Virus record (IMG/VR): IMGVR_UViG_3300036772_000567
Coordinates: 1 to 45,833 of that record
Direction: 5' to 3' (one strand)
Length of the DNA stretch: 45,833 nucleotides
Source: a virus
Made by a program: the position numbers and the translations under genes. Under the pieces are notes generated by a model. It was not told the origin of the DNA. It was given only the letters and a program-made list of their open reading frames with translations, and made no database searches. Of this stretch, positions 28,307 through 38,264 are shown piece after piece (within the stretch, counting starts at the first letter, position 1; the number at the start of each line of letters is the position of its first letter).

Positions 28307-29284
28307 ATGGCTTCCACTCGTCTTTCAGACATCTTCATCAGCGATTACTACCAGACAATCGCACCGGTTAACAGCCCGGAGAAAACCGCTGTATACGATT
28401 CAGGAATTATCACACGCCTTCCAGCACTCGACGCGGTTGCACAAAATGGTCAAGGTACTGCCACTATCAGCTACTGGCAGGATTTAGACGCGGATGAAGC
28501 ACCAAATGCTTCTACTGATGATCCGGATGAAATCGGTAAGGTTGGTAAAGCCACCCAGGGCAGCATGCGTTCTCGTACCCTATTCCTGAATAAGGGTTAT
28601 GGCGTGGCTGACTTAGCATCTGAGTTAGCTAACAGCGATCCAATGACACAGATTCGTAACCGTTTCGGTACCTATTGGACTCGCCAATGGCAACGCTATC
28701 TGATTGGCACAGCCCGCGGAATTATCGCTGCGAATATTGCAAACGATGACAGCGACATGGTTATCCAGTCTGGAGCAACAATTAGCGCGCAAAACTTCAT
28801 CGATGCTGCTTATACCGCTGGCGATGCTGCGGATGGTTTCTCTGCGCTTGGTGTGCATTCGGTCGTCATGAAACAAATGGCTGAGCAGGATTTAATTGAA
28901 TACCTGCGCGACTCAACCGGCCAGATTATCTTGCGTACTTACTTAGGCAAGCCAATCTTCATGGATGACAGCCTAAAAACAGCAGATAACGGCTATTTGT
29001 CAGTATTCTTTGGTTCAGGTGCATTCGGTTATGGCGTTGGCACTCCACACACGCCGACTGAGCTTGAGCGCAAAGCATCTGGTGGTAATGGCGGCGGTGC
29101 AGAAGTGTTATGGGAGCGTAAAACCTACATCATTCAGCCTGCCGGTTTCAGCTGGAAAGGTGAAGATGATCCGAACCTGACACCCTCTTATACCCAAATG
29201 GCAACTGCCTCCAACTGGGAACGCGTCTTTGACCGTAAGCAGGTGCCATTTGCAGCGGTTCTTTCACAAGCTGCAGGTTCGTAA
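28307..29284 (+). CDS. Major capsid protein
   Basis: A 325-residue coat protein in the expected place after the scaffold. Recognisable segments are DIFISDYYQTIAPVNSPEKT, QRYLIGTARGIIAANIANDD, QNFIDAAYTAGDAADGFSAL and GKPIFMDDSL, which fit the HK97-like fold of lambdoid siphophage capsids. Hundreds of copies form the shell. A strong UUCG hairpin follows the gene. Confidence 0.85.
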   Translation: MASTRLSDIFISDYYQTIAPVNSPEKTAVYDSGIITRLPALDAVAQNGQGTATISYWQDLDADEAPNASTDDPDEIGKVGKATQGSMRSRTLFLNKGYGVADLASELANSDPMTQIRNRFGTYWTRQWQRYLIGTARGIIAANIANDDSDMVIQSGATISAQNFIDAAYTAGDAADGFSALGVHSVVMKQMAEQDLIEYLRDSTGQIILRTYLGKPIFMDDSLKTADNGYLSVFFGSGAFGYGVGTPHTPTELERKASGGNGGGAEVLWERKTYIIQPAGFSWKGEDDPNLTPSYTQMATASNWERVFDRKQVPFAAVLSQAAGS

Positions 29285-29295
29285 GCGTCAATCAT

Positions 29296-29316
29296 AAAGG
29301 GGCTTCGGCTCCTTTT
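29296..29316 (+). terminator. UUCG-capped terminator after the capsid gene
   Basis: AAAGGGGC-TTCG-GCTCCTTT, 8 pairs with one G-T, followed by a T and TTGTG. It could stop or stabilise capsid mRNA and sets the capsid gene apart from the downstream cassette. Confidence 0.65.
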
Positions 29317-29338
29317 GTGTTTATTTAGGTATTGTGAA

Positions 29339-29908
29339 ATGACCAACAAAATCTTTTTGAGCTTTAACCGTCTTTATACGTTGAAAGATGGCGATTATCA
29401 CGGTGCAACGCTGACTTATCGAATTAAGCACGGCGATGACCTGCTGGCTGAAGGTGAGATTAAGGGTAAGTCACTCTCACAATTCATCCGTCCGGTAGAA
29501 ATCGAGGAAATGGAGCTTACCAAGCCACTTTCAGTTGATTACGTCTGTACTGGCAATGTAGAAGATATCGCCGTTTCATTAACACCTACAGATGACAGGG
29601 CTTTCCGAGTCGTAGATGGGGGCTTTTATATTAAGGACTGCTTTATCCGGGATGGTTGGCTGGATGACTGCAAGAAACGATTTGGTGATTCTGAACCGAT
29701 GCCATTTGGTGGCTTTCCTGGCGTAAAAGAATGCCAAACACATGCGGTCAGTTCAGATGCCCAATCCATTATCAATCATGCTATAACTCTGCGCGAAGAA
29801 TCCATATCCGATCAGCGGGAAATGAAATCGTCAGATGATCTAACCGCGAAAGTTGAATCCATCATCTTGGCGCAATTAAAGCCGGGTGGAATTCTTTGGC
29901 GTAAATAG
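29339..29908 (+). CDS. Hypothetical protein ahead of the glycosyltransferase genes
   Basis: I place the start at ATG 29339 (MTNKIFLSFNRLYTLKDGDY), giving 189 residues. The N-terminal half is a beta-rich domain (HGATLTYRIKHGDDLLAEGE, KSLSQFIRPVEIEEMELTKP). The middle (FYIKDCFIRDGWLDDCKKRF) has a Cys pair. The C-terminal 50 residues are helical. It lies 12 bases before the glycosyltransferase gene and may belong to the same cassette. No family recognised. Confidence 0.65.
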   Translation: MTNKIFLSFNRLYTLKDGDYHGATLTYRIKHGDDLLAEGEIKGKSLSQFIRPVEIEEMELTKPLSVDYVCTGNVEDIAVSLTPTDDRAFRVVDGGFYIKDCFIRDGWLDDCKKRFGDSEPMPFGGFPGVKECQTHAVSSDAQSIINHAITLREESISDQREMKSSDDLTAKVESIILAQLKPGGILWRK

Positions 29909-29919
29909 TTGGGGTAATT

Positions 29920-31377
29920 ATGCAGGTCACTATTGATGGTGTCCCGTATGCGCCTGCGTGCAATTCGGGCTCTCGGATTGGAATCGCCATCACGACGCAC
30001 AACCGGCCTGCTGTTCTGGCAAAGACGATTGAGCAGCATCTGAAGCACTTCCCGGCTGGCGCCAAGTTGATTGTGATAGATGACGGTTCCGCGCCAGCAG
30101 CCACCGCCGCCGGTATCGAAATAATCAGGCATGAGAAATCACTGGGGATCGTGGCTTCGAAGAACCGGAGCCTCGAGGCGCTGATTGATGCTGGCTGTAA
30201 GCACCTTTTCCTGTGGGACGATGATGCCTATCCGATCAGCGATAACTGGCACGTCCCATACGTCGAATCACCTGAGCCGCATCTGGCTTACCAATTTCTC
30301 GATCTGGCTGGCGTGCAGAAGCTGAAAGATATGGCGGTGCTGTATCGGGATGAACAACATATCGCTTATACCGGCCAGCGTGGCGTGATGCTCTATTACC
30401 ACCGCAGCGCAATTGAGAAGGTCGGCGGCTTTGACCCGGTTTATGGTCGTGGCATGTACGAACATCCCGATCTGGCGCTGCGCATCCATAATGCTGGCTT
30501 GTCTACGTGGGCATTCGCTGATGTAACTGGTTCGGAAAAGCTGATTTATTCGCTGGATGAGCATGCGGCTGTCGAACGTTCTGTTCCACGGCCTGACCGT
30601 GAGACGCTGGTAAAGCGCAATGTAGGGATTTACAACAACAGGCGGGACAGTGGCTATACCGGCTTTGCCCCTTATCGGCGTGAGCGTGACGTGGTCATTA
30701 CGACCCTGCTGACCAGCCAGCCAGATCCCCAACGTGCAGCTGCAATGAAGCCAGATGAATCAGTTCTTTCTGCTTGGTCGTCTTCGATTCGCGGCGCTGA
30801 CGCTGTGGTACTGGCCGACCAGCTCAGTGTTGCACCTGCTGGCGCTTCTTTGGTTATGGTGCCCGCGGTTCAGATGAGCCCGTACTTTGCCCGCTGGGTT
30901 CACATCTATCAGCACCTCAGAGCGCATCCTGAATACCGGTTCGTGTGGTGTACGGATGGGACTGACGTCGAGATGTTGCGTGAACCTTGGGCTGAGATGG
31001 CTTCCGGCAAGATATATGTTGGCTCTGAGCATAAGACTTACGCTGACGGATGGATGAAGGCCAATCACCACGGTCGAGCATATGGCGAGTTCATTGATCA
31101 GTATCGCGATGAGTCACTGCTTAACGCCGGTCTCCTCGGCGGCTCGCGTGATGACGTGATGGAGTTTGCTCACCGGATCGTAAGGCTGCATTACCGCATT
31201 GAGAGCCAGCGGTTCTGGAAGATGGAAACAGCGCCAGCGACCGCGGTTGATATGGGCGCGTTTGGCATGGCTGCAAAGTCATTCGGTGACCGCGTTGTTA
31301 CGGGGCCAAAGGTTCACACAGTCTTCAAATCTGATGATGGTATGGGTAAGGAGTTCGCCTGGTGGAAGCACAAATAA
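29920..31377 (+). CDS. Two-domain glycosyltransferase
   Basis: A 485-residue protein. Residues about 18-215 are a GT-A/GT2-type domain: RIGIAITTHNRPAVLAKTIE, IVIDDGSAPA (DDGS at 54-57), FLWDDDAYP (DxD around 100-102) and GGFDPVYGRGMYEHPDLALR for acceptor contacts. Residues about 230-480 look like a second nucleotide-sugar domain: VVITTLLTSQP, FVWCTDGTDVEML and LLNAGLLGGSRDDVMEFAHR. In phages such enzymes modify virion proteins or DNA. Its place in the head operon makes a virion protein the likely acceptor. Sugar and target are unknown. Confidence 0.8.
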   Translation: MQVTIDGVPYAPACNSGSRIGIAITTHNRPAVLAKTIEQHLKHFPAGAKLIVIDDGSAPAATAAGIEIIRHEKSLGIVASKNRSLEALIDAGCKHLFLWDDDAYPISDNWHVPYVESPEPHLAYQFLDLAGVQKLKDMAVLYRDEQHIAYTGQRGVMLYYHRSAIEKVGGFDPVYGRGMYEHPDLALRIHNAGLSTWAFADVTGSEKLIYSLDEHAAVERSVPRPDRETLVKRNVGIYNNRRDSGYTGFAPYRRERDVVITTLLTSQPDPQRAAAMKPDESVLSAWSSSIRGADAVVLADQLSVAPAGASLVMVPAVQMSPYFARWVHIYQHLRAHPEYRFVWCTDGTDVEMLREPWAEMASGKIYVGSEHKTYADGWMKANHHGRAYGEFIDQYRDESLLNAGLLGGSRDDVMEFAHRIVRLHYRIESQRFWKMETAPATAVDMGAFGMAAKSFGDRVVTGPKVHTVFKSDDGMGKEFAWWKHK

Positions 31378-31952
31378 AGGTTGTGGTGGTCGGCCATCAT
31401 TCCCGGCGTCAACAGGCATGCCATCTTGCGCACCTGCTCGATGCTCACCTGCTGATTGATGACCAAGACCGCGGCGCTAACTGGAATCACCGGCGCGCCA
31501 TGGAGTGGGCAGCTGACCAGGATCAGCGCGTTGTTGTCATTGAGGATGATGCGATCCCTGTTTCTGGCTTCACTGAATCTGTTTGTGGCTGGCTTGAACG
31601 CTTTCCTGATGACCTCATTAGCTTCTATCTGGGTACCGGGCGACCTCCACAATACCAAATGGCAATCGCAGGCAAACTGATTAACGCCGACAAAAATCGT
31701 TCAGACTTTGTCACGTTGCCGCGACTGCTTCACGGGGTTTGTTACAGCCCCCCGAAACAGGTCATCGATAAGATACTGAGCCGTTGGGACTATGCGCAGG
31801 CTGCAGATTACGCTGTCGGAGACGCCTACGGCGGGGCGGTGATTTATCCATGCTACTCGCTGGTTGATCATCAGGATGAAGCCAGCGTGGAAAATCACCC
31901 TGATAAAACACCTCGCACCGAACGCAGAAAAGCGTGGAGGCTTCATCAATGA
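31362..31952 (+). CDS. Second glycosyltransferase-like protein
   Basis: A 196-residue protein from a GTG start, overlapping the previous gene by 16 bases. KVVVVGHHSRRQQACHLAHL, RGANWNHRRAMEWAADQDQR and VVIEDDAIPVSGF (EDD at 61-63) form the donor-binding half of a small GT-A enzyme of the GT25-like type. LPRLLHGVCYSPPKQVIDKI lies in the acceptor half. Overlap implies co-translation with the two-domain enzyme and possible sequential sugar addition. Confidence 0.75.
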   Translation: MEAQIKVVVVGHHSRRQQACHLAHLLDAHLLIDDQDRGANWNHRRAMEWAADQDQRVVVIEDDAIPVSGFTESVCGWLERFPDDLISFYLGTGRPPQYQMAIAGKLINADKNRSDFVTLPRLLHGVCYSPPKQVIDKILSRWDYAQAADYAVGDAYGGAVIYPCYSLVDHQDEASVENHPDKTPRTERRKAWRLHQ

Positions 31953-32431
31953 TTATCAACGACCCGACGTCACCGGATTTTAATAGCTATGCGAGCGTCA
32001 TAGAGTTAAAGAGCTTTGCCTCATCTCGCGGTTATTCATTGCCGGAAACCGATGAAGAAATCGAGACGTTGCTTATTCAGGCGATGGATTACCTCGAGGG
32101 GCTTGTCTGGCGTGGAAAGCCTGCTGAACCAAATCAGCCATTGGCATGGCCGCGCACCGGCATAAACCTGAACGGTGAACCAGTTACAGGCGTTCCGGTA
32201 AAGCTTAATCAGGCTCAATGTCGGCTGGCAATCGAGGCACAGACCGTCGATCTCTCCCCCTCTTTCTCCGGCGGCGGAGAGGTAACTCAGGAAACCGTTG
32301 TCGGGGCGGTCAGCGTGTCATATGCAGAAGGCAGCAGCACATCAGCGCCTTATTTCAGCTGGCTCTCTGGCTTGTTGCGCGGGCTGACTGGCGCGTCATC
32401 ATCCGTCAACTTTGACGTAATGCGGGGATGA
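31949..32431 (+). CDS. Head-tail connector protein (DnaT-like)
   Basis: I place the start at ATG 31949 (MIINDPTSPDFNSYASVIEL), overlapping the glycosyltransferase stop. The 160-residue protein resembles the small helical connectors annotated as DnaT-like ssDNA-binding in phages: SFASSRGYSLPETDEEIETL, MDYLEGLVWRGKPAEPNQPL, WPRTG. It probably docks under the portal. The DnaT label is a database habit, not evidence of replication function. Confidence 0.75.
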   Translation: MIINDPTSPDFNSYASVIELKSFASSRGYSLPETDEEIETLLIQAMDYLEGLVWRGKPAEPNQPLAWPRTGINLNGEPVTGVPVKLNQAQCRLAIEAQTVDLSPSFSGGGEVTQETVVGAVSVSYAEGSSTSAPYFSWLSGLLRGLTGASSSVNFDVMRG

Positions 32432-33820: not shown

Positions 33821-34498
33821 ATGGGCTTTGCATTGCCTAACGGCGCGACTGTTTTCGTCGGGTCAAAACTCGCTGCCGCAGTGTCAGCAACCGCAGTAAC
33901 AAACGCAGACGGAGCGGTATTCACCGTTGCCACTGGTCACGGTCTCGCGGACGATGATGTTGTTCTTATCTCATCCGGTTGGGGGCTTATTGATAATCTG
34001 GTCGCCCGCGTCTCAAGCCAGACAGCAACGTCGATCACCATCGACGTGCTCAACACCTCTGACACCAATTTCTTTGCCGCTGGAGCTGGCGTGGGCTCAT
34101 TGCGCAAAGTGACAGAATGGACGGAGATCCCCCAAATCACAGAGGTTACCTCCAGCGGTGGCGATCAGCAGTACGTGCAGATTCAGTTCCTGTCCGATGA
34201 TCGCCAGCGCAACCTGGCTACCTACAAAGCTGCGAAAACGCAGACCTTCACGCTGGCGCATGATTCTACCCTGCCAATTTACGGCGTGCTGACGGCCGGT
34301 GACCGCAGTGGGGATACGCTGCCGCTTCGCATGTACGTGCCGAAGGCCAAAGAAATGCGCTACTGGTCAGGCATCCCATCCTTCGACCCGCAGCCAACTA
34401 CAGCTGTAAACGCCGTCGAAACCGTTCAGGCAGCCTTTGCCGTACAGTCTCGCGACATGACGTTCTACAAAGACACCGCGTCGGAGCCTTCCAGCTGA
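33821..34498 (+). CDS. Major tail tube protein
   Basis: A 225-residue protein in the tube position. It has an N-terminal beta domain (FALPNGATVFVGSKLAAAVS), an Ig-like segment (GAVFTVATGHGLADDDVVLI), and a C-terminal core (GGDQQYVQIQFLSDDRQRNL, AFAVQSRDMTFYKDTAS). Stacked hexamers form the tail tube through which DNA passes. Confidence 0.85.
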   Translation: MGFALPNGATVFVGSKLAAAVSATAVTNADGAVFTVATGHGLADDDVVLISSGWGLIDNLVARVSSQTATSITIDVLNTSDTNFFAAGAGVGSLRKVTEWTEIPQITEVTSSGGDQQYVQIQFLSDDRQRNLATYKAAKTQTFTLAHDSTLPIYGVLTAGDRSGDTLPLRMYVPKAKEMRYWSGIPSFDPQPTTAVNAVETVQAAFAVQSRDMTFYKDTASEPSS

Positions 34499-38100: not shown

Positions 38101-38264
38101 CGTCCGTTGTGGTTCAGACCGGCAACAATCAGCAGCAGACGTCGGGCAACAGTGACGCCATTGGTAAAGCTTACCAGCAGGTGATCGACCAGTCTGTTCG
38201 CGATGGGATTGCGAAAGCTTTGCGTCCCGGTGGTCTCATCTACAACGCAAACAACTCACGTTAA
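35175..38264 (+). CDS. H: Tail tape measure protein
   Basis: A 1029-residue protein that sets tail length. It has N-terminal coiled coils (VNTSDVERGSNELDKFAEAA, SREVEDTHQRVRRFSEALKQ), then the TMP signature around 225-300 (LPAQITDVVTSLASGMPVYM, GGQIKDSFGGMGNAAKALLG), and a hydrophobic segment (VGIAAAAVVLGTLAISAYKG). The C-terminal lambda-H-like portion includes FAKSFLTSIVEIINKLLIAQ and GIVHRGEFVMTKEATSRIG. It is coated by G/GT, and the C-terminus is probably processed. Confidence 0.95.
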   Translation: MAGDIATISLRVNTSDVERGSNELDKFAEAAAVAAKGADSFGASGKGAAKASAEVSREVEDTHQRVRRFSEALKQNETSIKGAAQATAQQQQELRTLLTQINPVTAAFEKLDNMEQQLSRFNAKGLIDSDTFRDASRTIQQTREELGRAAEARTAEGRAAAAAAQEDKAAAAAKETYLQRLREQVELQGKTSSEIQEYRAAQMGLSQQAAPLIAKLRDQENAWKSGAISAGQYRQAMRQLPAQITDVVTSLASGMPVYMVAIQQGGQIKDSFGGMGNAAKALLGLLNPVTVGIAAAAVVLGTLAISAYKGSDELEQFNKSLALTGNYAGTSAGNLVALSKQLATGTTTIAGAAASINAVVSSGKFGSDQLVAASQAVIDYQKATGLAADQAISDLEKLTTAPAQGLLDLNEKYHFVTASVYQQVAALEKQGDTQAAATLAISTYADMMKQRAADVQNSLGDIQRGWNSLKNIASQAWDAMLGIGREKTLDEKLAQATENLRNASNPKFWGLGGVFVDNGETVGEDNGLKEVLSLKAQITQQDLLNASKAAETETREKNLQLSQKVNSLDSSVASNAQKRLENIKVVNEALKAGLITQEKASQLTIGINDRYKDPKTPKGVTKAYQDDAGTRELLASQQRLAALKEQVSASTTLTSQEQQLSKFTQQIADLKSKTTLTADQKSLLARAGEITASLQLEAQLSRENVQREKAVKALKQMQDYTTSIVSKNAQTQEKFGLTTKQAGRVDQETQLNNTFRKQTDGITDPAALSKVTEEYNRAKEALRSGWEQEDANQGDWLAGMNQGIAQFGENASDVFTATGQLAQTTLSDMSSMMSTLATTGKANVKDFAKSFLTSIVEIINKLLIAQAVQAAMGWISSSFSAGSGTATAASNSSFSSGAYSGLSFDSGGYTGEGDKFAPAGIVHRGEFVMTKEATSRIGVDNLYSMMRGYADGGLVGGNAGMFGLSGGQSNSTVVQTSVVVQTGNNQQQTSGNSDAIGKAYQQVIDQSVRDGIAKALRPGGLIYNANNSR

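Follow-up and report, generated by a model that had tools for sequence, protein, structure and literature searches.

The stretch of DNA analysed here (45,833 nucleotides, the complete IMG/VR record IMGVR_UViG_3300036772_000567; subsequently designated the window) carries two glycosyltransferase genes within the head operon of an enterobacterial prophage. The window features listed in this and the next paragraph are located on the plus strand. The left flank is formed by the gene of the major capsid protein (MCP; 28307..29284), which is a Gp13-like protein according to Pfam, matches phrog_247 (E 1.6e-97) and ends in ...LSQAAGS. It is followed by an open reading frame of 189 aa with an ATG start (ORF1; 29339..29908), by the gene of a large two-domain glycosyltransferase of 485 aa (29920..31377) and by a GTG-initiated gene for a small glycosyltransferase of 196 aa (GT196; 31362..31952), which overlaps the 485-aa gene. 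The right flank is the gene of the head-tail adaptor Ad1 (31949..32431; phrog_477, E 7e-50), which overlaps the GT196 gene by 4 bases. Further downstream lies the gene of the major tail protein (MTP), which forms the tube and ends in ...SEPSS (33821..34498; phrog_584, E 1.9e-85). The first-pass annotation of this DNA had listed three ORFs at 29339-29908, 29920-31377 and 31362-31952 and considered them an insertion between capsid and connector genes; all three were recovered, and the Gp13-like MCP and Ad1 on either side confirm the placement. Phages and loci carrying the pair of large and small glycosyltransferase genes are referred to as GT+ and those without it as GT-. In the GT- loci L450 and L115, Ad1 immediately follows the capsid gene.

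The intergenic region between the capsid gene and ORF1 (29285..29338) contains a terminator-like UUCG hairpin at about 29293-29319 (RNA fold -12.2 kcal/mol), which is only slightly more stable than the folds of shuffled sequence (z -1.7). This hairpin, whose presence we can affirm, had been interpreted as marking the left junction of the insertion. However, hairpins of equivalent type also follow the MCP gene in the GT- relatives L103 and L104, and where ORF1 is absent an equivalent hairpin is found directly 5' of the glycosyltransferase gene. Therefore, the UUCG hairpin is the usual post-capsid terminator and not the left edge of the cassette.

Along its entire length, the 485-aa protein matches phrog_1579 ("glycosyltransferase"; E 1.5e-226). 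Its N-terminal domain (residues about 18-240) is of the GT2 type, as it matches the Pfam model Glycos_transf_2 with 26.5 bits (cut-off 23.3) and carries the acidic motifs DDGS (D54, D55, G56, S57) and DDD (D100-D102). None of 29 homologues deviates from these motifs of the first half or from WxTDxxDV and NxGxxGG in the second, bearing out the initial proposal of a two-domain enzyme with DDGS and DxD motifs. A second sugar-transferase-type domain had also been proposed, together with structure prediction as a check; indeed, AlphaFold models the protein as two GT-A-like lobes (pLDDT 69.5 overall), of which the GT2 lobe is only partly well modelled and the C-terminal one (residues about 255-465; pLDDT about 80-93) appears GT6-like. 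In Foldseek searches, the whole chain was placed near the two-domain heparosan synthase (8vh8) and chondroitin polymerase (2z86), which likewise possess two GT-A domains per chain. However, identity to these synthases is about 10% with a low global TM-score (0.2), and the phage enzyme differs by its apparently GT6-like C-terminal domain and by an acceptor that is thought to be protein-bound. Domain-length matches were obtained to the GT6 enzymes alpha-1,3-galactosyltransferase and the blood-group A/B transferases (GTA/GTB), at E about 1e-5, TM about 0.5 by target length and 12-14% identity, a resemblance that has no sequence-level counterpart. From alignment length and model quality we infer that these matches fall on the C-terminal domain.

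GT196 matches phrog_854 ("glucosyltransferase", E 1e-68). Its identity to Che8 gp110 is 31% (E about 1e-21); to gp35 of NiebruSaylor, the counterpart in cluster O, it is 32% (E 1e-17). NiebruSaylor was used as a stand-in for Corndog in our comparisons. The overlapping gene had been labelled GT25-like, but membership of GT25 was not supported, as 0 of 29 homologues match the Pfam GT25 model. Searches of the PDB by sequence yielded no significant relative of either GT196 or the 485-aa enzyme, and no profile link between the two enzymes was found. The partners of the small enzyme vary between phages, being gp108/gp109 in Che8, gp33/gp34 in cluster O and gp99 in Fruitloop. It is thus the small enzyme that remains constant, which fits an initiating role. 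The idea that GT196 alone suffices, suggested by loci possessing only this gene, was dropped because L298 and L338 retain no more than short 3' remnants and L250 is truncated; HK633, which has lost the large enzyme, has kept nearly the entire gene.

The gene pair is a portable cassette, which resides in the head operon here and at the lysis-terminase junction in HK97-type phages. A scan of viral contigs yielded 505 relatives of the large enzyme, and among the large-enzyme loci with enough downstream sequence the pair is intact in 211 of 213, the small enzyme missing in 2. A search for the same locus in other prophages, as the first-pass annotation had recommended, detected the pair between capsid and Ad1 at no fewer than 10 distinct prophage loci with window-type heads, and additionally at L090 and L178, two loci whose capsid is unrelated. 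In HK97-type and other lambdoid prophages, lysis genes flank the pair on one side and HNH/terminase genes on the other. Complete E. coli genomes rarely contain it (6/5,426 and 8/5,426, using two different queries). The assertion that no such set is described in lambdoid phages proved too strong, as the pair (PHROG 1579/854) is annotated as glycosyltransferase/glucosyltransferase in mEp390, HK542, ENT39118, ECP1 and others, albeit at a different locus. The enzymes of these four HK97-type phages are about 70% identical to those of the window and encoded in the same order, but they lie between the lysis and HNH/terminase genes, and in some cases an HNH gene separates the two glycosyltransferase genes. 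The Klebsiella jumbo phage FBKp24 (L445) possesses the pair (identities about 55% and 44%) in isolation, on the forward strand amid reverse-strand genes; its capsid gene was sought but not located, so that FBKp24 could not serve as a further test of the C-termini.

The placement of the cassette bears on the question of what the enzymes modify. Prophage glycosyltransferases commonly change the host surface, and the lysis-terminase site of HK97-type phages holds variable accessory genes. The pair could accordingly be a serotype-conversion or superinfection-exclusion moron that alters the O-antigen or another glycan of the lysogen. However, in the window the genes lie within the late head operon, Pfam and NCBIfam searches of the cassette proteins gave no match to membrane-type GtrA/GtrB/Gtr, and the enzymes are homologous to a virion-modifying enzyme and co-vary with the tails of virion proteins (see below). 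We therefore regard alteration of the lysogen surface as quite unlikely.

Presence of the gene pair predicts a C-terminal serine, usually as Gly-Ser, on the MCP and usually also on the MTP. In the window, the MCP ends in ...AAGS and the MTP in ...EPSS; the terminal serine codons are positions 29279-29281 and 34493-34495, respectively, and are proposed to specify a first and a second acceptor. The capsids of mEp390 and HK542 end in ...SSGS and their tail proteins in ...ASGS, and GS is likewise the end of capsid and tail proteins in ENT39118 and ECP1. The corresponding ends are ...KTGS and ...SDGS in Che8 and ...LVGS and ...KGDS in the Corndog-like NiebruSaylor, and the unrelated capsid of the GT+ locus L178 ends in ...GGGS. 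Within the MCP family of the window, 17/17 GT+ but 0/72 GT- members have a GS end (8/8 versus 0/14 after dereplication; Fisher p 3e-6). Among the relatives of the window MTP, GS or SS ends occur in 18/18 GT+ and 0/38 GT- proteins, 4 of the latter ending in LS. In the HK97-type set, all 101 full-length MCPs of GT+ phages end in serine, 97 of them in GS, and 49 of 51 MTPs end in GS; the exceptions, L246 and L268, possess an Ig-tailed MTP without the tail serine. Similarly, the L083-type capsid family has a serine end in 63/63 GT+ versus 2/17 GT- members. To obtain a less biased sample, L083-type capsids were searched for in the genomes of one family (295) and of one order (395), and about 10 kb upstream of them were read; L462 lacks upstream sequence and L516 has a broken frame, so that both were left out. 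Again, the serine end was present in 7/7 GT+ but only 1/23 GT- cases (p 4e-6). In the Che8 capsid family, three distant GS-ending relatives carry a gp110 homologue, and one relative ending in the residues GT has none within its 19-kb fragment. Finally, when GS-ending ORFs were collected without bias from GT+ loci, they were mainly MCPs and MTPs.

Co-variation of this kind could reflect ancestry rather than function, the serine being a shared structural feature of GT-carrying lineages. Indeed, GT status clusters on the capsid tree (12 changes observed versus a shuffled mean of 22), and some GT- phages of the HK97 type retain ...SSGS. However, on the tree of HK97-type capsids, for which the last 25 residues had been removed, GT status changed independently at least 8 times, and the serine end is found in 37/37 GT+ rows versus 4/30 GT- rows. 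Phylogenetically independent contrasts were concordant in 5-6 cases, discordant in none and uninformative in 2-3, which taken alone is borderline (p 0.03-0.06). The four serine-keeping GT- capsids (L229, L261, L334, L501) are all nested among GT+ rows, the pattern expected of recent GT loss; the rule would require such a loss in each of them. In L501, the tag protein encoded by a neighbour gene of the cassette is still present at the cassette site. Moreover, GT+ phages show the same tail on tail tubes and on capsids of unrelated families, whether their hosts are Enterobacterales or mycobacteria. Hence, we hold shared ancestry to be a very unlikely explanation for the serine.

ORF1, which had originally been counted among the components of the enzyme set, requires separate consideration. 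A stretch of 25 residues matches minor tail and tail-tip proteins (phrog_18, E 1.8e-6); the protein is otherwise without match, and its AF2 model is poor (pLDDT 46). A relative in L004 (8001-8852) contains an inserted fibronectin type III-like (fn3) domain, and other proteins upstream of the large enzyme match Phage_Tail_Tip (PF09327). Generally, the proteins encoded directly upstream of the large enzyme are variable and many of them are modular, with tail-tip or fn3-like pieces. ORF1 carries a C-terminal tag (29855-29905) consisting of an amphipathic helix, [KRQ]PGG, a hydrophobic pair, a few residues and the stop, and the same tag is present in the tape measure protein (38196-38261). Since such tail-tip-like proteins often lie immediately 5' of the glycosyltransferase gene and share the C-terminal ...PGG-LL tag, they might be the true acceptors or partners of the enzymes, the link to the capsid being indirect. 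However, ORF1 is optional in head operons: nothing of it is found between MCP and glycosyltransferase genes in L035, L096, L097, L099 and L197, and elsewhere unrelated genes take its place. Proteins of the ORF1 type lack a serine end and occur without glycosyltransferases in L501 and mEp237, and tape measures carry the PGG-LL tag regardless of glycosyltransferases. The ORF1 family was consequently rejected as acceptor, and we consider a role of these proteins as the actual targets or partners most improbable. ORF1 is best treated as a separate, apparently virion-like accessory protein outside the enzyme set. The PGG tag was also seen in the upstream proteins of L032, L041, L044, L046, L049, L080, L180 and L193 and in the tape measure proteins of mEp390, HK542, HK633, N15 and HK639, and phrog_13555 matches it in both groups alike.

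Glycosylation of virions by phage-encoded enzymes has been described for mycobacteriophages, involving gp108-110 in Che8 and gp36-38 in Corndog (Freeman et al. 2023, as cited in PMC12363180, PMC11256854 and PMC12619734). In these citing papers, Che8 gp110 and Corndog gp38 are described as essential enzymes for the process (PMC12363180), capsid and tail-tube subunits are said to bear the glycans C-terminally (PMC12619734), and shielding from antibodies by the glycans is reported. The window shares with Che8 and Corndog a homologous small glycosyltransferase of the gp110/gp38 type, an adjacent further glycosyltransferase as elongating partner, and capsid and tail-tube proteins with matching serine ends, NiebruSaylor representing Corndog in the latter respect. 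As in Corndog, the genes are located inside the head operon (PMC4351075). A single fused two-domain enzyme replaces the separate gp108 and gp109 of Che8. Further differences to both phages are the enterobacterial host, the lack of an adjoining O-methyltransferase and the site between capsid and adaptor; moreover, glycosylation is predicted from genes here, whereas it was reported on virions there. The same pair in the same order is present in Fruitloop (cluster F1), where gp99 is 45% identical over the full length and gp102 30%; there, however, it is located at the right genome end and two small genes lie in between. Judging from these sequence comparisons, the system would be a new enterobacterial member of the described kind.

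The characterised homologue is also informative with respect to DNA as a potential target. Phage glycosyltransferases are generally known to modify DNA in many cases, PMC12619734 mentions both roles, and the HK97-type pair adjoins HNH nuclease and terminase genes; the enzymes could therefore glucosylate a modified base of the phage genome as protection against restriction. However, the homologue modifies virion proteins according to the papers cited above, no base-hydroxylating partner is seen adjoining the cassette, and DNA modification provides no reason for matching C-terminal serines on capsid and tail proteins. It is extremely unlikely, in our judgement, that the genome is the substrate.

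Taken together, the cassette can with good confidence be predicted to glycosylate the virion, starting with an O-linked sugar on the terminal serine attached by the 196-aa enzyme and followed by extension through the 485-aa enzyme. This reading is built on several observations: both genes are present and assigned to families, the large enzyme is modelled with two domains, the two genes are linked, and a C-terminal serine co-varies with them. According to the proposed mechanism, the 196-aa enzyme would recognise the flexible C-terminal tail of newly made MCP and MTP and attach the first sugar in O-linkage to its last residue, a serine that mostly follows glycine (...Gly-Ser-COOH). Each GT-A domain of the 485-aa enzyme would subsequently extend the chain by a further sugar. 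Every subunit of the assembled head and tail tube would bear short glycans, as reported for the mycobacteriophages Che8, Corndog and Myrna, and ORF1 would be a dispensable, tail-tip-like neighbour. We infer that the enzymes are catalytically active, in which order they add sugars, that the serine is the point of attachment and that glycosylation occurs in this phage. The terminal serine is the likely acceptor, given that published glycans were located at the C-terminal ends of the capsid and tail-tube proteins. Three sugar-transfer activities encoded by two genes are a fair prediction from sequence and model. The original suggestion of capsid or tail glycosylation through successive addition of two or three sugars thus probably applies, with up to three transfers predicted on the grounds of homology to Che8 gp110, the two GT-A domains and the co-varying C-termini.

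With moderate confidence, we extend this reading to a portable cassette that reads a C-terminal (Gly-)Ser code on structurally unrelated capsid and tail-tube proteins, the serine being gained and lost with the cassette in phages of Enterobacterales and Actinobacteria. It would follow, at the same level of confidence, that virion glycosylation is common well beyond mycobacteriophages and predictable from the last residue or two of the MCP. For a long time, phage particles were regarded as free of glycans, and to our knowledge mycobacteriophages provide the only demonstrated cases. We are likewise not aware of a description of the end-of-chain serine rule, and searching the literature for serine acceptors at the C-terminus was without result. 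This rule is the new part and worth following. If it is true, several hundred enterobacterial prophages, including cultured coliphages such as mEp390 and HK542, bear glycosylated heads and tails, and a simple predictor together with an obvious acceptor residue makes the enzymology testable in E. coli. The tail would represent a short genetically encoded glycosylation tag, and the finding would bear on phage recognition by immune systems and in the gut.

Several additional observations concern the neighbouring proteins and genes. HK97-type Ad1 proteins of GT+ phages often end in ...EEGS (L055 8564 and relatives), so that a GS end is not restricted to MCP and MTP; this end may possibly be a further acceptor or a coincidence. 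The HK97-type MTP exists in a short GS-ended form (144-157 aa) or in a 234-aa form with an Ig-like C-terminus (examples are L201 6680-7150, L202 6678-7148 and L204 6736-7440). Almost all GT+ phages of the HK97 type possess the short form, which gives the impression that the coat is either a glycan or an Ig domain. The tail of the short form leaves the tube at the position of the Ig domain, suggesting that it is surface-exposed. In several phages, an HNH endonuclease gene is located between the two glycosyltransferase genes (L002 7499-8011; L081, L092, L100) and may help to move the cassette. The site 5' of the cassette in lambdoid prophages is occupied by many unrelated accessory genes (L030, L053, L024, L068-L070, L177), some of whose products resemble a phosphatase or a protease from sequence, which suggests that this site is a hot spot for cargo.
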